Origin: Lachnospiraceae bacterium | GTDB lineage: Bacteria > Bacillota > Clostridia > Lachnospirales > Lachnospiraceae | Length of the DNA: 50,064 nucleotides | Assembly (NCBI GenBank): GCA_017467845.1 | Contig: JAFUKH010000051.1 | Span: forward strand, 1 to 50,064 | Reading direction: 5' to 3' | Shown: in pieces, positions 8,880 to 38,411 of the stretch | Layout of the letters: each line of letters begins with the position of its first letter | Numbering within the stretch: position 1 is the first letter of the stretch | Translations under genes and position numbers: made by a program | The notes under the pieces: generated by a model | Told to the model about the DNA's origin: nothing | The model's database searches: none | What the model saw: only the letters and a program-made list of their open reading frames with translations

Positions 8880-9030
8880 AACTATTCAGAGCCATACGAA
8901 TTTGTGAGAAAAAGGCTCCGCGAGCGTGCTTGCAGGAGACTGTTTTCACAAATTCACATGGTGAGAAGCACACATGAGCAAAAGAAAAGCCTGATTAAGG
9001 CGATTTTGCGAATGGTGGCTCTGAATAGTT
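8880..9030 (+). repeat. Structured intergenic element, copy A
   Basis: An outer stem of 15 perfect pairs (8880-8894 with 9016-9030) encloses three parts. The first is a long arm closed by GAATTTGTGA/TCACAAATTC (8898-8907 with 8946-8955). The second is a small GTG/CAC hairpin with loop AGAAG. The third is the family core: GCAAAA (8978-8983) pairs with TTTTGC (9004-9009) around an inner GCCT/AGGC hairpin. GA at 8976-8977 and GA at 9010-9011 sit opposite each other just outside the core stem, as in a kink-turn. It lies in the probable leader of the AraC-type gene. The family is not one I recognise. Confidence 0.7.
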
Positions 9031-9071
9031 ATATATGACAAAAAATCCACAACACATAGGAGGAGTTTCAC

Positions 9072-10034
9072 GTGTCGAAGCCAAAAAGCACCGTAACAGA
9101 ATATCGAAATTATTATCTTCCCCCTAACTTTCCTGCACTACTTCTTTCAGGAGACTATTGGAAGATTTCAGATGTTCCCAGCGGACGTCTCCATTTTCAT
9201 AATTGTCTCGAAATCGGAATCTGCCACAGCGACAGCGGTATCATGGAATTCTTTGGACAACCCTCTTTCTTTAAAGCAGGTGACATTACGGTTGTTCCGC
9301 GAAACATCCCTCATACCACCTATAGTACAAAGGGTACGGAAAGCCGTTGGTCATATATCTATCTTGATCCGGCGGAGTTGCTTGGCTCCATGCTTCCATC
9401 CACTTGGAAGACACTTGATCTGTCTCTGAGCGACTTCCCGGTTCATCGTTATATTATGCATAAAGAGGAATTCCCGCAGATTTATCAGCTAATTATCAGC
9501 ATTATTGCGGAGATGGAGGAGAAAAGACCCAGCTATCAGATCAGTGCAAGAGGACTTTTCCTCTCTCTCTTCATTGAGCTTTACCGCATTCAGGCCATGG
9601 AAGGAAAGGATAAGACTCTGACAGCTTCTGATGATGAAGGTCCCGACAATTCTCTGGTAATCGCTCCTGCACTGGACTATATCGAAGAAAACTACATGCA
9701 GCAGTTTTCCATTGACCTACTTGCAGATTTGTGTCATTGGAGTCCCACCCATTTCCGTCGTGTATTTCACGACATCATGGGCACTTCACCACTGGACTTC
9801 ATCAACAACACCCGCATTATGAAGTCCTGCAACCTACTTCGCAGTACCGAGGAGTCTATTCTGGATATCTCCGAACGGGTAGGCTTCCACTCTGTATCCA
9901 GCTTTAACAGGTATTTCACAAAGGTTATGCAGATGTCTCCAAGAGAATACCGCAAGCAAATGATTCAAACTGACAAACGTGCCGAGAATCAGTCCATTCT
10001 GGAATATGCCGGATGGATGTTCCCGGAAAAATAA
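9072..10034 (+). CDS. AraC-family transcription regulator with cupin-type sensor domain
   Basis: 320 residues. The N-terminal half has a cupin-like sugar-sensing fold (HFHNCLEIGICHSDSG, then GDITVVPRNIPHTTYS). The C-terminal 100 residues are an AraC DNA-binding domain with two helix-turn-helix units, including THFRRVFHDIMGTSPLDFI and ERVGFHSVSSFNRYFTKVM. The start is GTG, preceded by AGGAGG at 9058-9063. It is divergent from the rhamnogalacturonan operon and probably its activator, a common pairing in these bacteria. A long leader holds structured element A. A symmetrical hairpin after the stop serves as terminator. The ligand is unknown. Confidence 0.93.
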   Translation: MSKPKSTVTEYRNYYLPPNFPALLLSGDYWKISDVPSGRLHFHNCLEIGICHSDSGIMEFFGQPSFFKAGDITVVPRNIPHTTYSTKGTESRWSYIYLDPAELLGSMLPSTWKTLDLSLSDFPVHRYIMHKEEFPQIYQLIISIIAEMEEKRPSYQISARGLFLSLFIELYRIQAMEGKDKTLTASDDEGPDNSLVIAPALDYIEENYMQQFSIDLLADLCHWSPTHFRRVFHDIMGTSPLDFINNTRIMKSCNLLRSTEESILDISERVGFHSVSSFNRYFTKVMQMSPREYRKQMIQTDKRAENQSILEYAGWMFPEK

Positions 10035-10054
10035 GTAGAAAAGTTGCGCGCAGC

Positions 10055-10092
10055 ATAAGACGCCCAGAGGAAGTGTTCCTCTGGGCGTCTTA
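10055..10092. terminator. Shared hairpin terminator between convergent genes
   Basis: A near-perfect hairpin with 16-17 paired bases, stem ATAAGACGCCCAGAGG, lies 20 bases after the AraC stop and just beyond the stop of the convergent surface-protein gene. T-rich tracts are short on both sides, so efficiency in either direction is uncertain. Confidence 0.75.
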
Positions 10093-10105
10093 TATTGTAC
10101 GATAG

Positions 10106-10918
10106 CTACACATTTTTCTTTTTCAGATATAATCCTCCTGTCATGCATACAGCAGCAAGACCAAGCATCCAATAATAGCTTACGATATCACCGGTCTTAG
10201 GTACATCATCCAGCTCATCTGTTGCAGACGAAGATGTCGCCGGAGCTGTTGTAGTCGTCTGTGCAGGAGCACTAACAACGGTGTTTGAAGAAGGCGTTCT
10301 GGAAAAATTACTCTCCGCAGTATTGAACGCACCCTCAACCAAGGAGAATGTTCCTGCCTTTACATCATAGATATCAAACACCAAATGATCTCCCTCATGA
10401 GCATATACGTGAGCAATTTCGCCAATCGCGCCGATTGTTGCCGAAAGCTTTGCCTCCGGCTTGTCGGTGGTAATCTCCAGGTACTGTACATTTTTATTAA
10501 AGTTACAGGTAGTGGTATCGTATACATACGCTTTATTTATATCCGCATTAATTACTCCGACAGAGCCACGTAAAACGTAACACTCCTCCACATATGGAGC
10601 AGTGACAACAGCTGTACCGGCATTCATGAACGTCAGGTTAGAAATCGTCTTTGTTAACTCTAGTTCCAATCTCTTATCAGACTCCATGATTACAACCTTA
10701 TCACCATCTTTAAAATTCTGGTGCATATAATATAACTCTCTGTGCTGCACGGTATCCTCCCATGGGTAATTGGGCTGGTAACGCCACTCATCATCCACTA
10801 CTTTAAGTGTATACGTGGTTGCTCCTTCTGCCTCTACTGTCAACTTTGTGATGCAGGATGCAGTGAACATCATACATAAACTTAAGATTACCGCAAAAAC
10901 CTTCTTCATTCTTTTCAT
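10106..10918 (-). CDS. Secreted, sortase-anchored surface protein with VPKTG motif
   Basis: About 270 residues. An N-terminal signal peptide is followed by a domain I do not recognise, with alternating beta-type sequence (about residues 30-200), and a Thr/Ser/Ala-rich linker. The C-terminal sorting signal is VPKTGD (Val239 to Gly243), then a hydrophobic segment and the tail KKKNV. The gene directly upstream encodes a class B sortase, and the 26-base gap suggests a two-gene operon, so this is the probable dedicated substrate. GGAGG lies two bases from the first ATG (10924) and eight from the ATG at 10918, which I prefer. Its role at the cell surface is unknown. Confidence 0.8.
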   Translation of the reverse strand: MKRMKKVFAVILSLCMMFTASCITKLTVEAEGATTYTLKVVDDEWRYQPNYPWEDTVQHRELYYMHQNFKDGDKVVIMESDKRLELELTKTISNLTFMNAGTAVVTAPYVEECYVLRGSVGVINADINKAYVYDTTTCNFNKNVQYLEITTDKPEAKLSATIGAIGEIAHVYAHEGDHLVFDIYDVKAGTFSLVEGAFNTAESNFSRTPSSNTVVSAPAQTTTTAPATSSSATDELDDVPKTGDIVSYYWMLGLAAVCMTGGLYLKKKNV

Positions 10919-10944
10919 ACTCATGTCCTCCTTTATTCTCTTCT

Positions 10945-11823
10945 CTATTGTTCACTTTCTTCCAGTGGCTGATACAGATGCTGTTCTTCCACTTCCTTTG
11001 CTACCACCACAAATCTTCCGTTGTCCACGTGATAAGAACAGGTAGAAAGGGTGATAAAATGGTCTCCGTACTCTGCCGTGACACCAGTGTCATAGAGAGA
11101 CAATTCTTTGATATTATCATAGAAATCCAGGAATTCCTCCTCGGAATCTGCCTCAAAAAACTTGTAGAACTTGAATACAGTATCACTCTTCTTATACACC
11201 TGAGAGCGGAATACAGCCACTACCTCATAAGTTCTTAACATTTCCGGTGTATAGAGGTGTATGGTGCTGTGGGAAGCCCCATATTCTGCATCCTCGTATT
11301 TCTCCAGTTTACCAAACATGGTACCCGCCTTCATATTATGCCCATGAATAATCAGGTTCGTTGTGGCAGGCTCCACCTTACTGTCGGTATCCAGAATCAG
11401 ACATCCTGCCTTATCATACTCACCGTCAAACCCTTTTCGAAGATAAAACTCTTCATTCTCCGGCGTCCACATAATCGGATAGTCAATATTGGTATCCGGA
11501 ATCTGTAGCCAGCCCGCCATATCCTCATTTGCCAGGAAGTACTCCTTGTAAGGATTCTCCACCAAAGGAACAGGCGTAGGTGTTGGCTCCGGGGTGGGCA
11601 CCTCTGTAGGTTCCACCGTTGGCTTCGGTGTAGGTGTCGGGGCAGCTGTTGGCTCCGGTGTTGATGTTCCCACCGGCTCCGGTACCTGAGTTGCTACTGC
11701 CACATCCGACTCTTCCGGAACACATTCCCCTCCACTGCCGTACTGTAACATCAAAAACAGTATAACCAAAAGAATTGACACAATTATTAATATTATCGCT
11801 AAAATTTTTCGAAAATTCTTCAT
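10945..11823 (-). CDS. Class B sortase
   Basis: A membrane-anchored transpeptidase that joins proteins to the cell wall. The N-terminal segment (residues 6-27) is one membrane helix. A Pro/Thr-rich linker with PTPEPTP repeats follows (about 46-88), then the sortase barrel. The catalytic triad is visible: His162 in IIHGHNMKAGTMF, Cys262 in ITLSTCSYH and Arg270 in DNGRFVVVAK. The spacing and GHNM context mark class B. I place the start at ATG 11823. An upstream TTG at 11880 would add 19 residues but lies beyond a strong promoter. From that promoter the transcript would begin at or next to this ATG, implying a leaderless message. It is followed by the VPKTG substrate gene. Confidence 0.9.
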   Translation of the reverse strand: MKNFRKILAIILIIVSILLVILFLMLQYGSGGECVPEESDVAVATQVPEPVGTSTPEPTAAPTPTPKPTVEPTEVPTPEPTPTPVPLVENPYKEYFLANEDMAGWLQIPDTNIDYPIMWTPENEEFYLRKGFDGEYDKAGCLILDTDSKVEPATTNLIIHGHNMKAGTMFGKLEKYEDAEYGASHSTIHLYTPEMLRTYEVVAVFRSQVYKKSDTVFKFYKFFEADSEEEFLDFYDNIKELSLYDTGVTAEYGDHFITLSTCSYHVDNGRFVVVAKEVEEQHLYQPLEESEQ

Positions 11824-11829
11824 GACTTT

Positions 11830-11858
11830 ATTATAGTAAATTCCCTTTGGTACTGCAA
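11830..11858 (-). promoter_or_regulatory. Promoter of the sortase gene
   Basis: TTGCAG (11858-11853), a 17-base spacer and TATAAT (11835-11830) on the minus strand. The expected start point seven bases on is the A of the sortase ATG at 11823. It is arranged back to back with the plus-strand promoter at 11865-11893; the two -35 boxes are six bases apart. Confidence 0.65.
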
Positions 11859-11864
11859 GTAAAC

Positions 11865-11893
11865 TTGACGCTTTTTTCAAATTTTAATATACT
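11865..11893 (+). promoter_or_regulatory. Promoter for element B and the YesN-type regulator
   Basis: TTGACG (11865-11870), a 17-base spacer and TATACT (11888-11893). The predicted start seven bases downstream, at 11900, is exactly the first paired base of structured element B. Confidence 0.7.
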
Positions 11894-11899
11894 TTATTT

Positions 11900-12051
11900 A
11901 CAGTTCCTCCATCTGAAAATGGAGAAAATTCGTGCTCGCACGAGATTTTCTTTATTCTCAGATGGAAGGAGCGCCATCTTATGAGCAAAGTTAGTCGCGA
12001 AGCGACGAGAAAGTGCCGAAGGCACCTTTGCGAATGGCGCAGGGGAACTGT
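11900..12051 (+). repeat. Structured intergenic element, copy B (5' leader of regulator gene)
   Basis: The outer stem is ACAGTTCC (11900-11907) with GGAACTGT (12044-12051). The long arm is TCCATCTGA/TCAGATGGA (11908-11916 with 11958-11966), capped by CGTG-CTCG-CACG. A GCGCCA/TGGCGC stem (11971-11976 with 12035-12040) leads through opposed GA dinucleotides into GCAAAG/CTTTGC. Inside it are two hairpins with GAA loops, GTCGC-GAA-GCGAC and GTGCC-GAA-GGCAC. It begins at the predicted transcription start and ends about 115 bases before the regulator ATG, so it is a strong candidate for a regulatory leader. Like copy E, it has two inner hairpins instead of one. Confidence 0.72.
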
Positions 12052-12146
12052 AAGTTCTACGCGAATGGCGCAGGGGAACTGTAAGTTCTACGTGAATGGC
12101 GCAGGGGAACTGTAAGTTCTACGCGAATGGCGCGAAGGAACTGTAC
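12030..12146 (+). repeat. 31-bp tandem repeat, 3.8 copies
   Basis: The unit begins GCGAATGGCGCAGGGGAACT and repeats at 12030, 12061, 12092 and 12123. Copies 1-3 differ at one base; copy 4 diverges at its end. Each unit repeats the 3' arm of element B's outer stem (GGAACTGT), giving four possible partners for the single 5' arm. The period is not a multiple of three and there are no spacers, so it is neither coding nor CRISPR. Confidence 0.9.
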
Positions 12147-12166
12147 CACGTATAGGGGGTAACGGA

Positions 12167-13750
12167 ATGTACCGAGTATTGATAGTTGATGACGAAGCCT
12201 TAATCCGGGAAGGATTAAAAGTGATTTGCGATTGGGAAGCACTTGGTTTTTCTATCTGCGGAGACGCAGCCAGTGGCGAGGAAGCGCTACAGAAAATTCT
12301 GCAGTTCAAGCCGGATTTGATTCTCATGGATATCAAAATGCCGGGAATGAACGGATTGGAAATCATAAAAAAATGCCGTGAATCCGGCGTAAACAGCCGT
12401 TTTATTGTCATTAGCGGTTATTCCGACTTTACCTATGCCCAAGAGGCCATCCGTTATGGTGTAGAAAACTATCTTACCAAACCTGTGGATGAAGACGAGC
12501 TGATTCCCACCGTAAAATCCATCAAGGAAGCTATGGACAGAGAAAATCGCAATTCCAATCATCTGGTGCAGATCCGCCGCAAAGCGAAGGATGTAATTCT
12601 TCAGGAAATCGTACAGGGCAAGGAACCGCTGGAAAGCATTCTTACCAAGGACGATATTGATGAATTAGAGTTGGATGCAGACATCTATCAGGTTGTTATA
12701 TATGAGAATTTCAGCATGATACCCACTAGTGCCTCCTACAGCTTTGCAGATCTTTTAAAAGTGACAAACAAGGGGGAACATACCTTTAATTATTTTGAAA
12801 AAGATCAAAAGAATGTTATTTTACTAAAGGGGACCTATGCGCTGAATCGTTTTCAGGACTTCCTTTCCAAATACGAGTCCTCTACTCCACCTCAGAGCGG
12901 AAGCCCTTTAGACACCTTATTTTTAGCCTACGGCAGACCTGTGGCCACTCTGGAGGAAGTACATAAATCATACGCAGAGGCACGGACTCTGATTTGCCGC
13001 CGTTTCTTCTGTATGAACGGTCAGCACACCTTAGGCTACGAAGAACTTCCGGGTGTAGAAGCCATGTCCCACACCATCAGCCCGGACATCCTGCAAAAGT
13101 ATGCCGACGAATTTATCGACTATCTACAAACCTTTAACCGTAAGAAAGTAATCTCCACTCTTTCTGAGTTAGAAGACTTTTTATATGATGTAAAAAACGA
13201 TATTACAGAAGTTAAACTGTTTTTGACCGACATGTATCTTAGCATTAAGGAAGGTATCAGCGTGGTTTATAACAATGCTACCATTCCTTTTGAGAGCAAT
13301 TCTTCTGTAATCAATCTGATTACCGACAAACACTATTTGTATGAGATTATTCAGTTTTTCTCAGAACAGTTCGAGATGATTATGAATTCCACCGGTAATC
13401 CGTCCCGCAACAGCGTACTGGATGATGTGCTCTTTTATATTGATCACAACTATCAGAACAATATTAAGCTGGAGACCATTGCTCCCTTATTTGGATACAA
13501 CAGCGCTTATCTGGGTAAGATTTTCAGCAAAACAGTAGGTGAGAACTTCAACTCCTATGTGGATCATATGCGAATCGAGCATTCCAAGGAGCTGCTTTTA
13601 AATAAGGCCATGAAGGTATATGAGATTGCAGAACGGGTAGGCTACCGCAATGTAGATTATTTCCACAAAAAATTCCGTAAATATGTAGGATTAAGTCCTG
13701 CAGAATTCCGTAAACAAAATAGTATTATCGATGAAGGCAGCGAAGAGTAA
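12167..13750 (+). CDS. YesN-type response regulator with AraC DNA-binding domain
   Basis: 527 residues. An N-terminal receiver domain (1-120) has the acidic pair DDE at 8-10, phospho-acceptor Asp55 in DLILMDIKMPGMNG and Lys in the TKP motif. A long central region (about 150-410) typical of YesN regulators follows, then a C-terminal AraC helix-turn-helix pair (about 425-520) ending VGYRNVDYFHKKFRKYVGLS. The start follows GGGGG with suitable spacing. The matching YesM-type kinase is encoded about 10.6 kb away on the other strand, next to the GH31 gene, and no other YesM/YesN partner is seen here. They may form one system controlling the xyloglucan genes between them (inference). Its leader carries element B and a tandem repeat. 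Confidence 0.94.
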   Translation: MYRVLIVDDEALIREGLKVICDWEALGFSICGDAASGEEALQKILQFKPDLILMDIKMPGMNGLEIIKKCRESGVNSRFIVISGYSDFTYAQEAIRYGVENYLTKPVDEDELIPTVKSIKEAMDRENRNSNHLVQIRRKAKDVILQEIVQGKEPLESILTKDDIDELELDADIYQVVIYENFSMIPTSASYSFADLLKVTNKGEHTFNYFEKDQKNVILLKGTYALNRFQDFLSKYESSTPPQSGSPLDTLFLAYGRPVATLEEVHKSYAEARTLICRRFFCMNGQHTLGYEELPGVEAMSHTISPDILQKYADEFIDYLQTFNRKKVISTLSELEDFLYDVKNDITEVKLFLTDMYLSIKEGISVVYNNATIPFESNSSVINLITDKHYLYEIIQFFSEQFEMIMNSTGNPSRNSVLDDVLFYIDHNYQNNIKLETIAPLFGYNSAYLGKIFSKTVGENFNSYVDHMRIEHSKELLLNKAMKVYEIAERVGYRNVDYFHKKFRKYVGLSPAEFRKQNSIIDEGSEE

Positions 13751-13776
13751 TTCGACTTTCCGTTCCGAAATAAAAA

Positions 13777-13823
13777 CTTCCCCCAAGGGTTCCGATGCAG
13801 TGGCAAGTCACCCTTGGGGGAAG
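13777..13823. terminator. Bidirectional terminator between regulator and GH5 genes
   Basis: A 14-base perfect stem (CTTCCCCCAAGGGT with its complement at 13810-13823) closes a 19-base loop. The plus strand continues CTTTTATTTT and the minus strand TTTTTATTT, so it can end both convergent genes. Confidence 0.92.
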
Positions 13824-13877
13824 CTTTTATTTTGTCACTAGGTAATGGCTCCCCTTGGGAACCAATAAATGTACATC

Positions 13878-21742: not shown

Positions 21743-21885
21743 CTTCAGAGCCTAGCGGTTATAATTTCATTTTGTCTGCAAGCTCGCTTGCAAAGACAAA
21801 TACGAAATTATAAGCATTCGGCGAGAAGCCGAATATGAGCAAAAGAAAAGCCACGAAGTGGCGATTTTGCGAATGGGCTCTGAAG
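21743..21885 (+). repeat. Structured intergenic element, copy C
   Basis: The outer stem is CTTCAGAGCC (21743-21752) with GGCTCTGAAG (21876-21885). The long arm is TTATAATTTC/GAAATTATAA (21759-21768 with 21804-21813), continued by TTTGTCT/AGACAAA and GCAAG-CTCG-CTTGC. A hairpin ATTCGGC-GAGAA-GCCGAAT (21816-21834) follows. The core GCAAAA/TTTTGC (21839-21844 with 21865-21870) contains GCCAC-GAA-GTGGC. Opposed GA dinucleotides flank the core. It is the cleanest copy of the single-hairpin subtype and runs opposite to both flanking genes. Confidence 0.75.
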
Positions 21886-21942: not shown

Positions 21943-24201
21943 TTATTTAGCGTCAGTACCAGCTTTTTTCTTCTTAGCTACTACTACACCGGCTACAGCT
22001 GCGATAACAACAACTACTACAACTGCCACAACAGGACCGGTAGAACCGCCCTCTTCAGCGGGAGCTGCTGCAGGAGCCTCGGTTGCTGCAGGTGCTTCAG
22101 TAGGAGCCTCGGTAGGAGCCTCAGTAGGTGCTTCGGTTGCTACAGGCTCTTCTACAACTGCATCATTAGCAAATCCGCTTACGTCGAAGCTGATTTCGAT
22201 GCTCTGCTTAGGAGCTGCATAATAAGGAAGTGCTGAAATCTCGTTGTTCCAGATGTTAGCAAGCAATACCTTCTGAACTTCCTTAGAGTCTGCATCTAAG
22301 AATGCGGTCTCCTGAGTAACAATCTCAGAACCGTCCATCTTAAGAACTACATTAGAAATAACAACATCATCGTTTACAGGTAAATCTGTAGATACGAATA
22401 ATAAGTTGAATAATCCTTCTTCGCCAAGGATAGCTGCGCCATCGAACTGACCTGAGAAGTCATATCCTTCAACAGCTACGGTGTAAGTACCATTTCCGGT
22501 AATCTCAACATCCTTGAAAGAACCACCCTGTGCAATCCACTCGCCATCGATGAAGCCCATCTGGTCGAAGCATCCTGAATCCTTACCATAGGTTGCATCG
22601 TCCCAAGAGTTACGGAAAATCCAGGTAGGAGTCTGAACACCGATGTATGCATGATAAGTTCCGTTAGGATCAAATGGGTTCTCAGGCTCAGCTGCTGCTG
22701 CAGGAGCTGCTACTAAAATGTTAGGAGTAATCTCAAACTTAATTTCAGAGAATCCCTTAGGAGATTCTGCCAAGTACTTATCGCCCCACTCATTGTAACC
22801 ACCGGCAATACGTACACACTGCTCAGCTGCAAAAGCTCCGGTTCCCTCTGCCCAGCAAGACTTGCCTACAGAAAGGTCTGTTGTAGCTTCAACACCGTCT
22901 AAGTAAACCTTTACATCAAAGGTAGACTCTTCAGAAATAACTGAACTGTCATCACAAGTAAAGAAAGGAGCTACATACCATGTATAAACTACAGGGCTGT
23001 CGAAAGTTACAGAAAGAGTAGTGGTCTCACCATTCTTTAATTCGCCGTTAACAACGGTAATTCCCTCAGGAGCCGCTTCCTCGCCTGAGTATCCCCAGCC
23101 CCAGTCATTTTCTGCTTCCTTATCAGCGCCGATTGCAATGTATGCAGGATAGGTCTCGGTACTTGGAGTAGGAGCACCAGCTGCTACGCTGCCTGCGGTT
23201 GCGCTGTTAATAGTAATGGTATACATAATCTCGGTAAATCCAACAGGTGAGGTAGCGAATGCCTGTGCTGCCCACTCATTGTAACCACCCTTTAAACGGA
23301 TAGTTTCTTCAGCACCGTAGTTACCGGTACCTTCATACCACCACTCATCTTCACCAACAGTTAAATCGACAGTATCTAATACTTCTTCACCATCAATAGT
23401 AATGCTGTCGATAGTATAAGATAATTCAGTAACGTCACTTGCTACGATTACAGGAGCCATATACCAAGTGTGGAATACTTCCTGAGGCATCTTTAATCCG
23501 ATTGTCACGGTATCACCAACGTTAGCAACTGCCGTAGTAGCTTCGATGCCACTTGCATTGTCTGCTTCGTTAGCCCAGCACATATCCCATGCATTCTCAG
23601 TGTACTCACCGCCGTAAGCTAAGAACATTTCCATATCGGTAGGAGTTCCTGATGTAGGAGCTGCCTGAGTTAAGCTGCTTAAGGTAATGGTGTACATAAT
23701 CTCGGTAAATCCAACAGGTGATGCAGAGAATGCCTGCGCTGCCCACTCATTGTAACCACCCTTTAAACGGATAGACTGCTCAGCAGTATATGTACCGGTA
23801 CCCTCGTACCACCACTCATCTTCGCCAACAGTTAAATCAATAGTATCTAACACTTCTTCACCATCGATGGTAATGCTGTCAATAGTGTAGGCCATATCGG
23901 TAACGCCCTCTGCTACAAGAACAGGAGCCATATACCATGTATGGAATACTTCCTGAGGCATCTTTAATCCGATTGTTACAGTATCGCCAACCTTAGCCAT
24001 AGCGGTAGTTGCTTCGATACCACTTGCGTTGTCTGCTTCGTTAGCCCAACACATATCCCATGCGTTCTCTGTATATTCTCCGCCGTAAGCTAAGAACATA
24101 AGATACTCTTCTTCCGCTGCTGAAGAGGTGAAAGTAAGAGTAGAGAACATCATCATGCTGGCAAGAAGAAAAGCAAACAATCTTTTCATTTTCTTTTTCA
24201 T
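21943..24201 (-). CDS. Secreted membrane-anchored protein with repeated beta-rich modules (candidate carbohydrate binder)
   Basis: 752 residues with a signal peptide (about 1-28). Modules 1 and 2 (about 30-170 and 188-330) are nearly identical, each containing MFLAYGGEYTENAWDMCWAN, an IDSITIDGEEV strand and a GGYNEWA turn. Module 3 (about 350-495) is related, and a more distant module 4 (about 505-690) follows. A TEAPTEAP linker then leads to a C-terminal membrane helix and KKKKAGTDAK tail. The aromatic-rich surfaces (WYMAP, WWYEG) resemble carbohydrate-binding beta-sandwiches, but I cannot place it in a named family. A related module occurs in the GH5 protein. It is encoded between the YesM kinase and importer 2, so glycan capture for that system is plausible. 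The start has AAGGAGGG upstream. Confidence 0.85.
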   Translation of the reverse strand: MKKKMKRLFAFLLASMMMFSTLTFTSSAAEEEYLMFLAYGGEYTENAWDMCWANEADNASGIEATTAMAKVGDTVTIGLKMPQEVFHTWYMAPVLVAEGVTDMAYTIDSITIDGEEVLDTIDLTVGEDEWWYEGTGTYTAEQSIRLKGGYNEWAAQAFSASPVGFTEIMYTITLSSLTQAAPTSGTPTDMEMFLAYGGEYTENAWDMCWANEADNASGIEATTAVANVGDTVTIGLKMPQEVFHTWYMAPVIVASDVTELSYTIDSITIDGEEVLDTVDLTVGEDEWWYEGTGNYGAEETIRLKGGYNEWAAQAFATSPVGFTEIMYTITINSATAGSVAAGAPTPSTETYPAYIAIGADKEAENDWGWGYSGEEAAPEGITVVNGELKNGETTTLSVTFDSPVVYTWYVAPFFTCDDSSVISEESTFDVKVYLDGVEATTDLSVGKSCWAEGTGAFAAEQCVRIAGGYNEWGDKYLAESPKGFSEIKFEITPNILVAAPAAAAEPENPFDPNGTYHAYIGVQTPTWIFRNSWDDATYGKDSGCFDQMGFIDGEWIAQGGSFKDVEITGNGTYTVAVEGYDFSGQFDGAAILGEEGLFNLLFVSTDLPVNDDVVISNVVLKMDGSEIVTQETAFLDADSKEVQKVLLANIWNNEISALPYYAAPKQSIEISFDVSGFANDAVVEEPVATEAPTEAPTEAPTEAPAATEAPAAAPAEEGGSTGPVVAVVVVVVIAAVAGVVVAKKKKAGTDAK

Positions 24202-26172: not shown

Positions 26173-26201
26173 AGTATACCACACTCTGCCCCACATTTAC
26201 A
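26173..26201 (-). promoter_or_regulatory. Candidate promoter of the YesM kinase gene
   Basis: TATACT (26178-26173) is 17 bases from TGTAAA (26201-26196), a weak -35 match. It lies between the GH31 terminator and the kinase ribosome site. Confidence 0.45.
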
Positions 26202-26300
26202 GAGTCGAGATATGCTTTGCGAATCTCGCTCCGATTAGCGGTCGTCAAATGTTTACTCGTGCAAGCACAGTGCCCATTTTCCTCGTCGCCATAACAGAAA

Positions 26301-26330
26301 AAGGGTGCTGCACTTACATACAACACCCTT
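26301..26330 (-). terminator. Terminator of the GH31 gene
   Basis: On the minus strand AAGGGTG and CACCCTT pair around a 16-base loop, followed by TTTCTGTT, 17 bases after the stop. Confidence 0.85.
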
Positions 26331-28802: not shown

Positions 28803-28945
28803 TATTCAGAACCAAGCAGATTTATGAAAACAGGCCATGCAAGTTTACTTGCGATGGCCTGCTTCCATAAATCTATTTGGCGAGAAGCCAAATAATGAGC
28901 AAAAGAAAAGTCGCAGAGCGACGATTTTGCGAATGGTTCTGAATA
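28803..28945 (+). repeat. Structured intergenic element, copy D
   Basis: The outer stem is TATTCAGAACCA (28803-28814) with TGGTTCTGAATA (28934-28945). The long arm AGATTTATG/CATAAATCT carries CAGGCCAT/ATGGCCTG and tip GCAAG-TTTA-CTTGC. The hairpin ATTTGGC-GAGAA-GCCAAAT and the core GCAAAA/TTTTGC with GTCGC-AGA-GCGAC follow. Opposed GA dinucleotides are present. Its right end abuts the stop codon of the gene at 28947, on the opposite strand. Confidence 0.73.
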
Positions 28946-28946
28946 A

Positions 28947-30660: not shown

Positions 30661-30676
30661 TTCAAATACCTCCATC

Positions 30677-30684: not shown

Positions 30685-30822
30685 GGTAGTGTCAAATTTA
30701 CCACCTATTTTTCTTTCTAAAACCTTTATTTTCGGGAATTTGCAAATAAAAAGAGCAATGTCCTCCCTTTTTAGGTATAATGTAAGTCACCACAACCAAC
30801 AAAACCTAAGGAGTCATTGCTC

Positions 30823-32285: not shown

Positions 32286-32332
32286 ATTCAAAGCCTGAGG
32301 TAATAATACCAGCCACCGCATAAGCGGCATTG

Positions 32333-32451
32333 CCCTTGATAACATCAAAAAGAACTGCTACACTGCTGTGAGCGACGGGAAAAGTATCTGTTCTTGAGTT
32401 CTTCGCCGTCGGTGATTATCTGACAGCGGTTCTTTTTGATGCTATCAAGGG
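32333..32451 (+). repeat. Long inverted repeat in the 3' tail of the insertion sequence
   Basis: Arms of 26 bases (32333-32358 and 32426-32451), the left beginning CCCTTGATAACATCAAAAAG, match at 24 of 26 positions and enclose a 67-base loop with further pairing. It lies after the transposase stop and before the right terminal repeat. The arms are far stronger than needed for transposase binding, so a structured RNA, terminator or protective hairpin is possible. Confidence 0.8.
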
Positions 32452-32550
32452 TGGCGGCACGCTACCACAACCTAATATACTTACAGTTTTCAAGGTTCAT
32501 CTGAGCCTTTTTTCTTTGCTCAGTTTTTTCATAAGTCATTTGACACTATC

Positions 32551-32558
32551 ATGTCAAG
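32551..32558. repeat. Target-site duplication, right copy (ATGTCAAG)
   Basis: Exact repeat of 30677-30684 directly after the right inverted repeat. Confidence 0.85.
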
Positions 32559-32667
32559 TTTTTCTCTTATTAGAAGTCATAACCAAAGGTAAAACGATAT
32601 AACATAACAGTTATTAAGTCCTTAAAAATACCTCGAGCGAAAATTCCAATTTCTCGGTGAATCTATC

Positions 32668-33045
32668 TTACAATCCTCTAATCTCCAAGAATTTTCTATA
32701 CACTTCGTGAAGTGCATTTCCCGGACTATCCGGGAACATGGTCTTAGGTGCTTCAGCATAATGCACCCACTCCGCAGAATCAATTTCTTCCGATAATTTC
32801 AAATCGCATTTATGGACAAATCCCACATATCCGTGCATAAGCATATCATTCTTCGCAAACCATGTGGTTCCCGCATACTCCAGACTTTCTAATTCAATAC
32901 CCAGCTCTTCCTTCACTTCCCGCAATGCCGTTTCCTCCGCATTCTCACCCGGAGTAATGTAACCGGAGGTTACCGAAGTATATTTATCGGAAAGATAACC
33001 CTGTCTGCATAGAACGATTTCATCAAACTCGTTATAGGTAAGCAC
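32668..33045 (-). pseudogene. NUDIX hydrolase, copy 1, missing its N terminus
   Basis: The 125-residue reading has a complete NUDIX box, GYITPGENAEETALREVKEELGI, spanning two parts (Gly-x5-Glu then REVKEELGI), which normally binds Mg and hydrolyses nucleoside diphosphate derivatives. The only start is a GTG inside a beta strand. Upstream the frame continues through YWFDSFASCVIV until a stop at 33099. Comparison with copy 2 shows that a zinc-ribbon domain is missing here. DNA identity to copy 2 is very high over about 370 bases, so the duplication is recent. Its C terminus (KFLEIRGL) seems intact. A shortened but active protein from the GTG cannot be excluded. Confidence 0.75.
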
Positions 33046-33146
33046 GATGACGCAACTCGCAAAACTATCAAACCAATAACCATTCTCGATGCAATGTCAT
33101 CCTGATAAATATTCGGAAGATTTTTCTATTTCTACTTCACCTATTA

Positions 33147-33725
33147 TCACTCCATCACCTTAACGATATTTTCAACCGTCAAATAAATCTGTTCCTCGTT
33201 ACTGATTGCAGGCTTACCGTCACCGTCTTGCGCACCATACATACCAAAATACGCATGGCAACCGCCATCAATGACCACCTCAATGAAATCACTTGGCAGA
33301 TTTGACTTGTTCTCATCGTATTTATCACGGTTTAGCACTTTATCCTCGCTACCGTATACGGAAAGCACATCAAAGTCCGTTTCGGACAAGTCCACTGTGG
33401 AGTACGATCCAAGCAAAATTAGTCCCTCATAATCATCAACATGATCTACCAGGTAGGATGCCGCCATGGAGCCGCCCAGCGAGTGACCGCCTATGTACCA
33501 ATCTTCGATTTCGGGATATTGCTCCTGTATTCCGTCTGCAGCATTCATTGATGCAAAAGCCCCTATCGCCTCTTGGTCTGCTCTGTAATAATCACCGACA
33601 TAGTAAGCAAAAGCCCCCACGATGATTGCAAGTGCAAGAATAATCGAAACCGCTATCGTAAATATCCTTCTTTTTCGTTTATCTTTCGATAAATTTGCAC
33701 CGTCGCTTAATCTTACTTTGTTCAT
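33147..33725 (-). CDS. Membrane-anchored alpha/beta hydrolase, apparently internally deleted
   Basis: 192 residues. A basic N terminus and one membrane helix (about 22-43) are followed by the nucleophile elbow GGHSLGG, a late acidic strand DVLSVYGSEDKVLN and the catalytic His in IDGGCHAYFGMYG. From memory, relatives in Firmicutes are about 250 residues and carry a segment with the first core strands and oxyanion loop between the helix and the elbow. Here only about 20 residues (YYRADQEAIGAFASMNAADG) join them. An in-frame deletion is likely but rests on family recollection. The start ATG has GGAG 11 bases upstream. Confidence 0.65.
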   Translation of the reverse strand: MNKVRLSDGANLSKDKRKRRIFTIAVSIILALAIIVGAFAYYVGDYYRADQEAIGAFASMNAADGIQEQYPEIEDWYIGGHSLGGSMAASYLVDHVDDYEGLILLGSYSTVDLSETDFDVLSVYGSEDKVLNRDKYDENKSNLPSDFIEVVIDGGCHAYFGMYGAQDGDGKPAISNEEQIYLTVENIVKVME

Positions 33726-33831
33726 ATAGTTAGACGCTCCTACAACTTCAAATTAGTTCGTATATTTTTCCAACTTTCCAGTATTAGTAGGCCTTTTCGA
33801 CCATCAACATTATATGTCCTCTATCCTAAGA

Positions 33832-33863
33832 TTTTAATTCCCCCGAATTCGGGGGAATTAAAA
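33832..33863. terminator. Perfect palindromic terminator
   Basis: TTTTAATTCCCCC pairs with GGGGGAATTAAAA around GAATTC. On the minus strand it starts right after the TAG that ends the KilA-N remnant, so it was probably that gene's terminator. Confidence 0.8.
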
Positions 33864-34055
33864 CTATTTTAGTACTGTTGTTGTCTGAGTTTCCAAAATA
33901 GACATCTGATGTATCGCAATCTTATTCAACTTTATCAATCGCTCTTTCTGACTTAATCCATCCTCAATTAATATCGCATTGATATTTTCCATATTAGAAA
34001 GACAGATTAATTCAGTAATACTCGCATAATCCCTTATGTTTCCCTTTTTGTCAGG
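33864..34055 (-). pseudogene. C-terminal remnant of a KilA-N domain protein
   Basis: An open frame of 63 residues without a start codon reads GNIRDYASITELICLSNMEN, then INAILIEDGLSQKERLIKLN and KIAIHQM, then TAG. This matches, from memory, the conserved C-terminal region of KilA-N domain proteins found in phages and mobile elements. The rest of the gene is absent: the upstream side joins, in another frame, to the 3' end of NUDIX copy 2 near 34055. It is followed directly by its terminator. The fragment cannot be translated as such. Confidence 0.6.
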
Positions 34056-34540
34056 GTTATTCTATACACTTCGTGGAGTGCATTTCCCGGGCTATCCGGG
34101 AACATGGTCTTAGGTGCTTCGGCATAATGCACCCACTCCGCAGAATCAATTTCTTCCGATAACTTCAAATCGCATTTATGGACAAATCCCACATATCCGT
34201 GCATCAGCATATCATTCTTCGCAAACCATGTGGTTCCCGCATACTCCAGACTTTCTAATTCGATGCCAAGTTCTTCCTTTTCTTCCCGTAATGCAGTTTC
34301 CTCCGCATTCTCACCCGGAGTAATGTAACCGGAGGTTACCGAAGTATATTTATTGGAAAGATAACCCTGTCTACATAGAACGATTTCATCAAACTCGTTA
34401 TAGGTAAGCACGATGACGCAACTTGCAAAACTGTCAAACCAATATTAATTGCAAGGTTCGCAAAAGGGGACATCCCCATCATCTCCCGCTTTCTTTTCCA
34501 TCAGTTTCGCTCCACACAGCGGACAGTATATATACCGCAT
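34034..34540 (-). pseudogene. NUDIX hydrolase, copy 2, with in-frame stop and replaced C terminus
   Basis: Starting at ATG 34540 (GGGAGG seven bases upstream) the frame encodes a zinc ribbon with CPLCG and CEPC (Cys6, 9, 27, 30), hits TAA at 34447-34445 after Asn31, then continues in the same frame as YWFDSFASCVIV and the full NUDIX domain to 34034. One base change in the stop would restore a protein resembling zinc-ribbon NUDIX/NADH pyrophosphatase-like enzymes. The last residues (ITLTKRET) differ from copy 1 because the gene is joined there to the KilA-N remnant. Re-initiation at GTG 34411 could still yield the NUDIX domain alone. Confidence 0.8.
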
Positions 34541-34570
34541 TGATTTTCCTCCCGTAGCATAAATATGTTT

Positions 34571-34620
34571 GTTTCAAAATGACTCACCCATCAACATATA
34601 GTGCCGAATCTTCTCAATTT
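34571..34620 (-). pseudogene. C-terminal remnant of an aminoglycoside phosphotransferase-like gene
   Basis: About 48 bases closely match the 3' end of the intact gene at 36560-37360: the shared CATCAACATATA core and CCGAATCTTCTC, with few differences and a two-base gap. Translated, it resembles the end of YYMLMDELF. The remainder of this copy is gone. It shows that a larger block containing both this gene type and the NUDIX gene was duplicated and then eroded. Confidence 0.7.
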
Positions 34621-34683
34621 AAATCATCCTGATAAAATTTCCTTCCATTCTAATTATCTATGGATATATTTTGTATTCTGTAG

Positions 34684-34811
34684 TATAATTATCTTCAGTG
34701 GGAACGGTTGCCCCTTGAGAAAGGGGGTTGATGCCTATGTATGTTTATAGTTCAGCCATGTCTTGCACGAGAGCAAAAATCTTGCTCGCAAGATTTTGTG
34801 AACAAGCATAG
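34684..34811 (+). other. Promoter and leader resembling a type I toxin gene, with a 26-codon reading frame
   Basis: TATAAT at 34684-34689 precedes a leader in which CCCCTT (34711-34716) and AAGGGG (34721-34726) pair around GAGA, burying the ribosome site GGGGG. ATG CCT ATG follows at 34731. The layout and the sequence GAGAAAGGGGGTTGATGCC recall leaders of small holin-like toxins of Firmicutes. The frame opens MPMYVYSSAM and ends at 34811, but it runs into structured element E and does not encode the usual hydrophobic toxin. It is probably a toxin leader whose body was replaced; the toxin link is from memory and tentative. Confidence 0.4.
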
Positions 34812-34902
34812 ACATGAACTGAGCGCATGTTTATGAGCAAAGTTAGCTAAGAAGTAGCGATAAAGCGACGAAGACGCCTTTGCGAATAGCGCGAGCTGAA
34901 CT
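34749..34902 (+). repeat. Structured intergenic element, copy E
   Basis: The outer stem is AGTTCAGC (34749-34756) with GCTGAACT (34895-34902). The arm CATGTCT/AGACATG (34757-34763 with 34810-34816) has tip AAAATCTTG-CTCG-CAAGATTTT. A GCGC-based stem leads through opposed GA dinucleotides into GCAAAG/CTTTGC, holding two small hairpins (GCTA/TAGC, and one with GAA loop). This is the same two-hairpin subtype as copy B. Confidence 0.7.
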
Positions 34903-34950
34903 GCTACAACTTAATAGGTCTGGTATACCAGATAAATCATAAAGATAAAA

Positions 34951-34986
34951 AATAACCGCCCCGGACTGGTAATCTTGGCGGTTATT
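34951..34986 (-). terminator. Terminator downstream of the GNAT gene
   Basis: AATAACCGCC and GGCGGTTATT pair around a 16-base loop. On the minus strand the stem is followed by TTTTTTATCTTT; the plus-strand side has the weaker CTTTAATC. It lies 136 bases after the stop of the minus-strand GNAT gene. Confidence 0.8.
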
Positions 34987-35122
34987 CTTTAATCACTATT
35001 ACCAAGGGGTACAACTTAGTACCACTCTTTGACTATACTATAACATTGATATGCTCTTTTCGCAACTCTTTATTTCGCAAAACGTTCTTGATGCATAGTC
35101 TTCTTGATAGATTGGGATGTAT

Positions 35123-35548
35123 CTATTTCAATTTCTTTTTTAAATAATATCTGCAATGATTTGCTGGGCAATCTTCCAGAACTCCAAACACTTTATATCC
35201 ATGTTTTGTATAAAAGTCTTTTGCTTGAAAATCAAACGTATCCAGATGAATCAAAGAGCAGTTCTCTTCTAAAGCATTTTTTTCAATTTCATTTAATAAC
35301 CTTGTTCCTAATCCACACTTTCTATACTTTTCATCCACCCATAAGATATCTATATAAATGACATTCCAACAATACATCTTCGCTAAACATCCGGCAATGA
35401 TTTCATTATTTTCATCAACTATTTTTTTATTGATATTTATAAAATCTAATCTTTGTGTTTTAGGTACTTGCCCTAAATTATATTCAACTAATTTATCACA
35501 AATATATTCTGCATCGGCATCTATACAATTCAAGATATTGCACATCAT
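35123..35548 (-). CDS. GNAT family acetyltransferase
   Basis: 141 residues. The acetyl-CoA binding motif is EKYRKCGLGTRLL, preceded by the strand NVIYIDILWVDE, with C-terminal HLDTFDFQAKDFYTKHGYKV typical of small-molecule GNAT enzymes. The first of two adjacent ATG codons (35548) has GAGGT nine bases upstream. The gene is more AT-rich than the neighbouring catabolic genes, consistent with acquisition. The substrate is unknown. It is a single gene with its own downstream terminator. Confidence 0.88.
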   Translation of the reverse strand: MMCNILNCIDADAEYICDKLVEYNLGQVPKTQRLDFININKKIVDENNEIIAGCLAKMYCWNVIYIDILWVDEKYRKCGLGTRLLNEIEKNALEENCSLIHLDTFDFQAKDFYTKHGYKVFGVLEDCPANHCRYYLKKKLK

Positions 35549-35703
35549 ACTTATTTTACCTCAAAATTTATCAATTTCTAAAGTTATTATTTCATCCACA
35601 AAGAACCTGCCGCCTCGTGCCCGTCGCACACCGTCCTTTTGATTTTATCAGTGTCACACCAGAAAATACCTGCTTTGCAGTTGTTTCCTTTTCCTTCTCA
35701 TTT

Positions 35704-36513
35704 TTATCGGAAATTATCTTCCAGCCACTTAGCAACACCATCTTCATCGTTCGATAATATGACCTCTGTTGCATATTTTTTCAAATCGTCATGTGCATTC
35801 GCAACAGCGTAGCTTTCGTCCGCCATTTGAAACATATCGATGTCATTCTTACCGTCACCAAATACAATCAACTTTTCACAGTCCAACATTGCTTTTAATT
35901 GTTTTACCGCATTCGATTTTGATGCCTCTAACGGCATGATTTCTAACCACTGCTCATTTGTATAGATATCTGTCTGATATACACAATGATATCTGTCTTT
36001 GTATTTTTCATACAGCGGCTTAAGTTTTTCCGGCTCGTCAATGCACGTAATATAAAATATGTCCCCCTCATGTAAATCACACAAGGAATTCACTTCATTG
36101 GTACGGATATCGCCTTTGCGACTATTGAGAAACATCTCCACACCCTTTGTACACAATTCCGGTACAAAGGAAAACTTTTCCGCGCCGTTAATATACGCAT
36201 AAACAATCGGATACACACCATTACAAAACAAATCTTCCAATACCGAATGAACGGAATCATCAAAATAATTGGCCACCAATATTTTCTCTGTGACATTATC
36301 AATGACAAAGGCTCCATTGTACACTATCAACGGAATTTTCGCTTCTATTCCTTTCGTCACTTTTTTAGCTGTAATCAAAGAACGTGCAGTGGCATACGAG
36401 AAAATCATCCCTTTATCCACTAAGGAATTTATCACAGAATTTGTGTATTCCGAGGTTGTTTCGTTGCTTCTTAACAAGGTCCCATCCAAATCTGAAACAT
36501 ATAAATTACGCAT
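35704..36513 (-). CDS. Cof-type HAD-family phosphatase
   Basis: 269 residues, the usual size for this family. Motif I is DLDGTLL, with nucleophile Asp8 and Asp10. Motif II lies in ATARS, motif III at the lysine of EASKSNAVKQL and motif IV is FGDGKNDIDM. The large cap domain between about 80 and 190 marks the Cof/IIB class, which removes phosphate from sugar phosphates or nucleotides in the cytoplasm. GGAG lies before the start at 36513. It stands alone 46 bases downstream of the phosphotransferase-like gene and may share its transcript. Confidence 0.92.
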   Translation of the reverse strand: MRNLYVSDLDGTLLRSNETTSEYTNSVINSLVDKGMIFSYATARSLITAKKVTKGIEAKIPLIVYNGAFVIDNVTEKILVANYFDDSVHSVLEDLFCNGVYPIVYAYINGAEKFSFVPELCTKGVEMFLNSRKGDIRTNEVNSLCDLHEGDIFYITCIDEPEKLKPLYEKYKDRYHCVYQTDIYTNEQWLEIMPLEASKSNAVKQLKAMLDCEKLIVFGDGKNDIDMFQMADESYAVANAHDDLKKYATEVILSNDEDGVAKWLEDNFR

Positions 36514-36559
36514 ACTCTCCGCTCCCTAGGTTGTCATCCTTCCGAAAAGAATCGTTCTT

Positions 36560-37360
36560 CTAAAACAACTCATCCATCAACATATAATACCGAATCTTCT
36601 CCCAATCCGGCTCTATGCCCAGCTTTTCAAAAAGTAAGTTTTCTTGAAAATCCGTACGTTCCTCCGAGCCATAGACTCCGGTATAATTGTGCTTCAGACT
36701 CCGGTAACACAGCGCAATATCCTGCCATTTATCTGCAATCCCGGTCTTTCCAAGGTCGATATAGCCGGACACTTCGCCATCCTTCACGAAAATGTTGGGT
36801 AGGCAGAAGTCTCCGTGGGAAAGTACCGGTTCCAGTGGTGGCTGATTCTCTATGAGCCAGTTTAGTAATTCCTGAGGATCCTTAAATCCTCCTTCACCAA
36901 AAGTCTCCGGCTCCACATTATCTACATCGATTTCTCCGTTTTCCACACTCTGCTTGGCTGCTGCCAGCTTCACCGGCAAATCCCAGCACATGGGACAATC
37001 AGTGATGTCTACTTCCCAAAGCTTTTTCAGTGCATTTGCCAAAAGCTCCGTCACCTGCTCTTGATTCTCCAGGATGCTCTCGTCACAGAACATCACGCCC
37101 GACATCTTGGACATCAGCAGATAATTCATCCCATTTTCCACAGTATGGTATAAAATCTTCGGTACAGGAAGCTTGCCTTTAAGCCACTTCATCATCACCG
37201 CTTCACTTCTGGTCTCCTCGTCCTCCGACTGGATTTTCAGAACCATGTCCTCAAATATGAGAATACGAGAACCGGACATTCCGATGTCGTCCATGGTATA
37301 AGGCTTTCCGGAGATAAAATTTTGTATATCTAGTGGTAGGTTTAGTTCTAATCTCTTCAT
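36560..37360 (-). CDS. APH(3')-like aminoglycoside phosphotransferase
   Basis: 266 residues, matching the length and layout of APH(3')-III. Key residues are the ATP-binding Lys42 with Glu53, catalytic Asp184 in LSHGDFCLPN, Asn189 and Mg-binding Asp202 in GYIDLGKTGIADKW. The C terminus is EKIRYYMLMDELF. Such enzymes phosphorylate the 3' hydroxyl of kanamycin-type drugs. Whether this one confers resistance cannot be judged, since many chromosomal homologues have unknown substrates. Its ATG follows the TAA of the upstream membrane-protein gene with no gap, so the two are translationally coupled. A decayed second copy of its 3' end lies at 34571. Confidence 0.85.
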   Translation of the reverse strand: MKRLELNLPLDIQNFISGKPYTMDDIGMSGSRILIFEDMVLKIQSEDEETRSEAVMMKWLKGKLPVPKILYHTVENGMNYLLMSKMSGVMFCDESILENQEQVTELLANALKKLWEVDITDCPMCWDLPVKLAAAKQSVENGEIDVDNVEPETFGEGGFKDPQELLNWLIENQPPLEPVLSHGDFCLPNIFVKDGEVSGYIDLGKTGIADKWQDIALCYRSLKHNYTGVYGSEERTDFQENLLFEKLGIEPDWEKIRYYMLMDELF

Positions 37361-37870
37361 TTACTCACAAATCCTCTTCGTATATGTATTCCTCGCGCTG
37401 TACACCAGCCCTGCCAGCACCAGCAGCATCAGAACCAGCGGTCCCACATTGAATTCTCCTAACAACATCTCCCCCAAAAAGAGGACGAGCCCCACCTGCA
37501 ATACATAATCAATTCCCATCAAAATCCGATAGGCCAGAAGCCGCTTTCCTTCCCGGGCAAACACTAATCTTGCAATTAATGCAAACACAAACAAAAGAAG
37601 CGCATAGCCTGCTACTATTATAATCATTGCCAGCACCAGTATCCCTGCAAAGGCTCCGAATCCATAACCGATACTTTCCGCAATCAGCCCATAGCCTTCT
37701 ACGTCCTCGATTTCATCATTACTCTCCAAAGTAGCATCCATACTACTTTTCAAACTAACCATCTCACTGTTGAGCTCCGCATATGCCACCCCAAGTACAA
37801 TCGGCACCAGCATCATCGCTGCCACCAATACAATTACCAGAATGAAATTGATATTTACTTTTTTCTTCAT
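37361..37870 (-). CDS. Small membrane protein of unknown function
   Basis: 169 residues. One helix near the N terminus (about 8-30) is followed by an extracytoplasmic loop (SEMVSLKSSMDATLESNDEI region) and three or four further helices. I do not recognise the family. The start at 37870 has GGAGG five bases upstream, better placed than the ATG at 37891. It is the first gene of a pair with the phosphotransferase-like gene. Confidence 0.75.
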   Translation of the reverse strand: MKKKVNINFILVIVLVAAMMLVPIVLGVAYAELNSEMVSLKSSMDATLESNDEIEDVEGYGLIAESIGYGFGAFAGILVLAMIIIVAGYALLLFVFALIARLVFAREGKRLLAYRILMGIDYVLQVGLVLFLGEMLLGEFNVGPLVLMLLVLAGLVYSARNTYTKRICE

Positions 37871-38061
37871 ATGCACCTCCGGATCTTTCATTCCCTAAAT
37901 GGCAGTATTTCTAATTCCAAAGCTTCTCCATAGTCTCTCACAGCACCAATAACCTTCATTCAGACAATAACATTATATCTTACTTTCCTATCTATCTCAA
38001 TTCTTGAAATTTACCCATCTCGGGAAATCACAGTTGGTTACGCCGTGCGGGTTGCACATAA

Positions 38062-38174
38062 GCCGTGCGCAGCTCGATTTGCGGCTTCGCCGCTCTCAAA
38101 TGCTTCGCCGGTTCACGCCGAGGATACGCCGTGCGCTGCTCGATTTGCGGCTTCGCCGCTCTCAAATGCTTCGC
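38062..38174. repeat. GC-rich direct repeat, two copies of about 47 bp
   Basis: The block beginning GCCGTGCGCAGCTCGATTTG recurs at 38128, period 66, with one internal mismatch. Each copy contains GCGGC-TTC-GCCGC and ends in AAATGCTTCGC. Copy 2 is completed to the palindrome AAATGC-TTC-GCATTT. On the minus strand these are hairpins with GAA loops, as in elements B, C and E. It stands out as GC-rich in an AT-rich gap and lies between the membrane-protein gene and a terminator. Confidence 0.85.
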
Positions 38175-38211
38175 ATTTGTAAATCTCGCTGGGCGCCAAG
38201 GCGCCCTATGC

Positions 38212-38268
38212 AAAAAGAGACAGCTGTTCTTATGAAAGCAAGCTTTCAACGAACTTCTGTCTCTTTTT
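38212..38268. terminator. Bidirectional long hairpin terminator
   Basis: AAAAAGAGACAG (38212-38223) pairs with CTGTCTCTTTTT (38257-38268). Further pairing inside leads to TGAAAG-CAAG-CTTTCA. T runs on both strands allow termination either way. Confidence 0.85.
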
Positions 38269-38307
38269 TACGCACGGCTTATTTGGTTATCCATAGTATG
38301 ATACCAG

Positions 38308-38411
38308 GGTCAGAAGGTCATGTGTTTCGTGCTTGCACGAAAAAACATGACTTTGGGACCCGCAAAAACATGAGAAAGTAGCCCGAACAGGGCGAATTTC
38401 GAATGTTTTTA
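38308..38411 (+). repeat. Structured intergenic element, copy F (diverged)
   Basis: The arm GGGTC...GACCC (38308-38312 with 38357-38361) encloses GTCATGT.../...ACATGAC with tip TTCGTG-CTTG-CACGAA. The core AAAAACATGAGAAAG pairs with CGAATTTCGAATGTTTTT around GCCC-GAAC-AGGGC. The opposed GA dinucleotides are kept (ATGAGA and TCGAATG). It lacks the outermost stem of copies A-E, so it looks like a degraded member. Confidence 0.5.

Follow-up and report, generated by a model that had tools for sequence, protein, structure and literature searches.

Probable miniature transposons with a covarying fold in a Lachnospiraceae genome

A 50,064-nucleotide stretch of DNA from a Lachnospiraceae bacterium (contig JAFUKH010000051.1; the whole stretch is "the window" below) carries six related structured elements, A to F, all on the plus strand, as an initial annotation had reported. 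Their fold is kept by strong covariation, and we conclude that the six are very probably miniature inverted-repeat transposable elements (MITEs) with a folded body, in which the fold would aid the persistence of the element, most likely as RNA. The annotation had offered three options, namely regulatory leaders, small RNAs or a mobile repeat whose RNA has a function, and the last of these was the right one, its RNA part being drawn from genomic context. It had also recognised no named RNA class, but F belongs to the Rfam family Clostridiales-1 (RF01699). At least one of the "noncoding RNA" families on record thus seems to consist of jumping elements. The elements and the features attached to them are as follows.

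8878..9032, plus strand: element A, putative type I MITE; core 8974-9014; tips decayed (GCAAC / GTTAT)
11897..12054, plus strand: element B, putative type II MITE; core 11981-12036
12030..12145, plus strand: tandem array of 31-bp units that repeat the 3' end of B; 3.7 copies, of which the first lies within B
21743..21885, plus strand: element C, putative type I MITE; core 21835-21875
28803..28945, plus strand: element D, putative type I MITE; core 28895-28935
34749..34902, plus strand: element E, putative type II MITE with a weaker fold; core 34833-34888
38293..38299: left 7-bp duplication of F, ATAGTAT; empty site in the relative G097
38300..38462, plus strand: element F, putative MITE, Clostridiales-1 (RF01699, 119.8 bits); core 38370-38405; empty site in G097
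38463..38469: right duplication of F, ATAGTAA; 6/7 identical to the left copy

The annotation had placed F at 38308-38411, which is too short: the element runs over 38300-38462, with direct repeats on both sides.

Distribution of the core

The window is one contig of a 2.995-Mb genome (105 contigs, 86% complete). We searched for the exact core with the pattern ATGAGCAAA-N20-50-TTTGCGAATG, using the reversed pattern as a control. There are 35 matches in the own genome (17 forward, 18 reverse; control 0), and in the window ATGAGCAAA occurs five times on the plus strand, in elements A to E, and never on the minus strand. Across the 61 genomes searched, the core was present in 22, i.e., in 22 of the 37 from the same genus (own genome counted) and in none of the 24 from other families; the highest copy number is 61 per genome (in G029), and the control has none. 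Genome contigs named among the matches listed are mainly from Lachnospiraceae, and contig-scan matches outside that family (e.g., Vibrio, Bacteroidales, Sporosarcina) are likely due to chance. Sixteen viral contigs were rejected as carriers of this element, tips of the A-E kind being found in 0/16.

Fold architecture

Type I elements (A, C and D) fold into a long arm, an GGCGAGAAGCC hairpin and a AUGAGCAAAAG...UUUUGCGAAUG arm with one hairpin. In type II (B and E), GAGCGCC pairs with GGCGC, and two hairpins lie inside a AUGAGCAAAG...CUUUGCGAAU arm, while F has AUGAGAAAG...AUUUCGAAUG and a third hairpin. The annotation had described a common core stem GCAAA/TTTGC, preceded by ATGA and followed by GAATG. 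This applies to most of the elements, but F has ATGA-GAAA...TTTC-GAATG, and E has GAATA, not GAATG. The exchanged stems that it listed, GCCAC/GTGGC (C), GTCGC/GCGAC (D) and GCCT/AGGC (A), are all present. Compared with resampled sequences, the folding energies of A, B, C, D and F have z-scores of -5.0 to -6.9.

The annotation was also correct that tandem G-A pairs mark the core, but not that they make it kink-turn-like. A kink-turn has a three-base bulge directly beside its tandem G-A pairs, and no such bulge is found here: the GA/GA loop is symmetric, and in A to E two A-U pairs separate it from the asymmetric bulge. We therefore describe the motif as a tandem G-A internal loop, and the RF01699 consensus likewise has a symmetric GA/GA internal loop that separates two helices. 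Two other candidates were rejected, a hammerhead-like core because only half of the hammerhead motif is there, and a coding element because the core lengths do not keep to one frame. CTCG or CTTG arm loops of the G(CTYG)C form, which the annotation had noted as frequent, occur in 23/28 type I and 48/50 type II aligned copies, i.e., in most but not all.

Covariation and strand asymmetry

Our alignments hold 28 of 36 type I rows and 50 of 80 type II rows; rows with odd lengths or doubtful ends and 43 untyped rows were left out, and three rows were trimmed. Both ATGAGCAAA and TTTGCGAATG are invariant in them because they formed the search pattern. Covariation, which the annotation had read from six copies, is real in this larger set. 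Both sides vary in 27 of 44 type I pairs, with 95.9% of cells pairing, and in 18 of 34 type II pairs, with 97.9% pairing. None of 500 shuffles reached these values, and sliding the partner by one to three columns lowers pairing to 28-45%.

Since 19 core bases are fixed by the search pattern, the Clostridiales-1 copies provide an independent test. In 36 copies anchored on AUGAG/CGAAU (three of the rows are mis-anchored), the second stem pair after AUGAG is CG in 18, GC in nine, AT in four, TA in two and something else in three, and this covarying pair is flanked by conserved AUGA and GAAU. The fold also favours one strand: in 104 of 108 copies the better fold, with RNA parameters, is that of the plus strand and not of its complement, and counted by cells G-U pairs outnumber A-C mismatches by 56 to 18.

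The same elements could instead owe their covariation to mutation, if template switching between the arms repaired quasi-palindromes without any selection. The arms, as long palindromes or hairpins with few or no mismatches, are a substrate for such repair, and both deletion derivatives and tandem 3' copies reveal replication errors. However, unpaired bases are conserved too (AUGA/GAAU of Clostridiales-1, the CTYG loops and a GAGAAG loop), and arm-to-arm repair alone predicts neither a favoured strand nor the excess of G-U over A-C. We therefore consider a purely mutational origin improbable.

Ends, target duplications and an IS66-family partner

The outer stem of the A-E fold is a terminal inverted repeat, which in the best copies reads GTAACTATTCAGAGCC (type I) or GTAACAGTTCAGCC (type II). 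Both tips are recognisable in 60 of 181 core-bearing copies. These 60 tip pairs, kept if 12 flanking bases were present, include two of negative length and a few more that look spurious. Identity between the flanks is maximal at 8 bp, where it is 0.485 compared with 0.311 when partners are shuffled (z 8.8; no other length exceeds z 2.7), and seven pairs are perfect at 8/8 and two at 9/9. Judged by their sequence, the A-E ends belong to the type on which IS66-family DDE transposases act, with AT-rich 8-bp target duplications.

A full-length partner with such ends exists in the same genus. We inspected 24 loci in relatives at which PF03050, the IS66 transposase family, has a match, and genome G006 has two identical, complete 1817-bp IS66-family elements, each with one 485-amino-acid open reading frame (ORF; PF03050). 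Their tips are GTAACTATTCAGCACC and GTAACTATTCAGAACC, and they lie in perfect 8-bp duplications, ATTTTTAT and AAAAAAAC; a related element in G017 ends in GTTACAGTTCAG tips and is flanked by a CCGATTTT duplication. The partner thus combines a DDE_Tnp_IS66 protein, GTAA ends and an 8-bp duplication, as do members of the family. PF03050 is found in 16 of the 61 relatives, and a search with the 485-amino-acid protein gave matches in 6 of 138 genomes of the genus, the own genome not among them.

Other mobilising systems were considered and rejected. An IS200/IS605-type or REP (Y1) element is not indicated, as PF01797 has no match in the own genome (35 copies) or in G029 (61 copies). Nor is there a recurring helper gene: the largest cluster of neighbours covers 13 loci at varied distances and looks by eye like an ABC transporter, and no repeated transposase beside the repeats was noticed among the 30 neighbour clusters shown.

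Element F and Clostridiales-1

An Rfam cmscan of the window gave a single match above the gathering score, that of F to RF01699 (119.8 bits). The annotation had held that such a match would speak against its reading, yet the structure is not refuted by it. Below the 48-bit cut-off, a relaxed threshold gives matches for B (36.1 bits), C (32.9 bits) and A (27.4 bits), and D and E have no match at E <= 10. In the own genome, there are 24 matches at E <= 1, four of them above the cut-off, and 12 of the 20 others overlap exact-core copies by position; among 14 control genomes, one has a weak match at this threshold and none exceeds the cut-off. Within the genus, 68 of 138 genomes have a match at E <= 0.01 and 35 have one above the cut-off (controls 0/14).

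Many Clostridiales-1 copies in relatives have inverted repeats of 17-19 bp (GATGCCAGGGTCAAAAG/CTTTTGACCCCGACATC) and AT-rich duplications of 7 or 8 bp. Perfect duplications number ten at 7 bp (z 4.5) and three at 8 bp (z 3.4) among 46 tip pairs, many of which are spurious short pairs. Deletion derivatives down to 49 bp also occur. These ends are unlike the GTAAC... ends of A to E, so we distinguish two MITE types with one common core, and, given the different ends and 7-8 bp duplications, F and the other Clostridiales-1 copies are probably moved by a different transposase. A clear GTAAC-type copy (L043, with a 7/8 duplication) sits at an RF01699 match of E 1.1e-6, which supports the common core; convergence is the alternative. 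Tentatively, then, one folded core may serve in MITEs with two sets of ends, and so probably two transposases, the fold being a separable module that, as RNA or single-stranded DNA, would bring a MITE success with either enzyme.

Occupied and empty sites

G097, the closest relative that we found, has 84% identity over 494 bases and shares synteny with much of the window. At the F site it reads GGTTAAGCATAGTATACAGCC, compared with ATAGTAT, F (163 bp) and ATAGTAA in the window, and the two flanking matches overlap there by 8 bases, so F and G097 form exactly the pair of occupied and empty sites that a MITE should leave. Three more elements are missing from G097, A (10 bases versus 169), B (24 versus 260) and E (about 41 other bases in its place), at sites without a clean join; C coincides with a contig end and D with a synteny break. 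In other genomes, element A is also absent from 12/12 further gaps that lie between this pair of divergent genes; these gaps have no core and no tip pair, and the search recovered A as its positive control. Several of these orthologous gaps contain a promoter-like word, GGTTGATTTT, and a TATATA-like box, and A lies downstream of it.

Own-genome copies of type I (18) share 69% identity on average and those of type II (8) share 67%, yet F is recent and A, B and E are missing in the relative. The compensated changes therefore probably arose along transposing lineages, which would mean that selection favoured the spread or harmlessness of the element itself.

Working form of the fold

Genomic context was counted with genes called simply as longest ORFs. 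Only 4 of 104 usable copies lie inside an ORF of at least 90 amino acids. Among 88 classified copies, the downstream gene is in sense for 60 and antisense for 28, and between co-directional genes the counts are 36 and 18 (p 0.02). Because the copies lie between genes and are more often in sense, the fold would most likely work as RNA. The annotation's claim of selection on RNA structure holds for a single-strand fold, of which RNA would be a more likely working form than single-stranded DNA.

The main rival to RNA has the same MITEs folding as single-stranded DNA, for example in an intermediate of transposition or in the lagging strand, with any RNA incidental. The core hairpin loops suit this: triloops are C-GNA-G in 84 of 137 cases, and the third base of C-GNNA-G tetraloops is a pyrimidine in 31 and a purine in 19 (a survey of 189 copies, chance matches and viral contigs included). 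Such loops follow the GNA/GNNA rule for very stable DNA mini-hairpins. The plus strand also folds better with DNA parameters (105 of 108 copies), and the 28 antisense copies among the 88 classified likewise speak for DNA. However, the sense bias and the promoters upstream of some Clostridiales-1 copies are unexpected from DNA alone, and DDE transposition is not known to need a folded strand. We consider action as single-stranded DNA rather unlikely, although it is the strongest of the rivals.

Those promoters also bear on whether the elements are host small-RNA genes (or leaders) that were dispersed and repeated by chance. Of 45 Clostridiales-1 copies, 8 have a promoter that agrees with the consensus at 10 or more of 12 bases within 60 bases upstream, versus 0.7 expected and one downstream, and Rfam types the family as "Gene; sRNA". 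For the A-E types, the promoter excess is weak (21 of 106 versus 11.7 expected at 9/12; 3 versus 1.9 at 10/12). Against host genes stand the terminal repeats, the duplications and the empty site, as well as the lack of a recurrent neighbour gene, the positions that vary between species and the orientation of C to F, which are antisense to both flanking genes in the ORF list. Host small RNAs are thus very improbable, and the annotation's small-RNA option gives way to elements that look like MITEs rather than ordinary small-RNA genes. Its regulatory leaders fail as a general reading because of the same antisense elements and a context that varies genome-wide; a riboswitch or other cis leader was rejected, as the elements do not keep to a fixed sense position ahead of a single gene type. 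Separately, five Clostridiales-1 copies were seen to lie right after near-consensus promoters (TTGACA-17-TATAAT type).

Points that weigh against folded MITEs

Several results do not fit the conclusion that A to F are folded MITEs as well as those above. The fold of E is weak (z -1.9 versus resampled sequences), and by column pairs the excess of G-U over A-C is just 27:14 (p 0.06). In-window scoring of A-E duplications covers A and B (C, D and E are not scorable), and their flanks match at 2/8 and 1/8 bases, i.e., with no recognisable duplication; the tips of B have four mismatches. The two ends of F match each other poorly as inverted repeats. The IS of G006 and the MITEs are alike in their tips alone, and the interior of the IS is without the folded core. 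No IS66 transposase was found in the own genome, itself 86% complete, by PF03050 (0 matches) or by protein search, and copy number does not follow the presence of IS66: G029, with 61 copies, has only a partial PF03050 match. For the Clostridiales-1 ends, no full element was found in G006 or G133, the two genomes searched, which have MITEs, deletion derivatives and fragments.

Proposed mechanism

Under the MITE reading, A to F would be non-autonomous DNA transposons of about 145-165 bp. The inverted repeats would form the terminal stem, and the body between the ends would have a long arm, in many cases with a G(CUYG)C cap. Its AUGA-stem-GAAU arm would contain the tandem G-A pairs and one or two exchangeable hairpins. 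We infer that the fold was selected because it helped the element persist over many rounds of transposition. A self-contained fold could, for example, let host transcripts tolerate the insert, or it could recruit a host factor.

Comparison with known systems

Element F is a member of Clostridiales-1, and A to E resemble that family in having a long CUYG-capped arm and an AUGA-stem-GAAU arm with tandem G-A pairs; they differ in scoring below the cut-off, in lacking the third hairpin and in having other ends. Neither the Rfam entry nor the table row for Clostridiales-1 in PMC2864571 mentions a transposon, and among the open-licence PMC papers listed by our searches we recognised none that describes Clostridiales-1 or the A-E repeats as transposons.

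IS66 elements have 8-bp repeats and ends beginning GTAAGCG, according to the lines on them in PMC11946415, and the part of PMC3281130 on two members gives 8-bp duplications. The A-E kind has the same GTAA-start ends and 8-bp duplications, and its tips have GTAACTATTCAG in common with the G006 element. In contrast to IS66, the MITEs have no transposase gene, and only the tips are common to both.

In the passages of PMC2229807 and PMC2267715 that describe them, ERIC, Correia/NEMIS and RUP are small mobile repeats of intergenic regions; they end in inverted repeats, have target duplications and give transcripts that can fold, and ERIC and NEMIS RNA alters mRNA stability. By description, A to F resemble ERIC and Correia/NEMIS in anatomy, but have other ends, duplications and fold, with a branched body, a tandem G-A core and strong covariation. 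Structured MITEs are therefore already known; what differs here is the fold, the ends and a core common to two MITE types.

Implications

Covariation is usually taken as proof of host RNA function, but here, in a very strong form, it lies inside mobile DNA, an Rfam family of no known function among it, so the inference to host function needs care. If the tentative reading of the fold as a separable module is true, the selected RNA or single-stranded DNA function belongs to a DNA transposon and not to a host gene. Some Rfam "noncoding RNA" families would then be passengers of transposons, their covariation being the outcome of selection on the transposon. The family is tractable, being small, abundant and found mostly in Lachnospiraceae, and it asks why a DNA transposon should need a folded strand.

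Other observations

The last 12 bases of F overlap the 3' end of an ORF on the minus strand (38451-40280), whose product is an ABC transporter by Pfam. As with B, seven further copies have 5'-truncated tandem 3'-end copies immediately downstream of the full element, and the spacer before such truncated copies is unlike the outer flank. Bearing on the idea of a retro-type 5' truncation, partial 3' copies adjoin at least 8 of 10 own-genome copies, which were chosen as looking so.

At 40324-43436 the window is 99-100% identical to a single contig of G097, compared with about 80% for the remaining synteny; a recent transfer is possible, as is an assembly or binning mix-up. A 471-bp tandem repeat (23213-24099, 1.9 copies) lies within a 752-amino-acid ORF (21943-24201) that has no Pfam match. 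Two other kinds of repeat recur in G097: a different intergenic repeat of about 105 bp (26199-26305), with at least nine further matches there at 82-92% identity, and a short repeat of 31-35 bp (13784-13818), with several near-identical matches.

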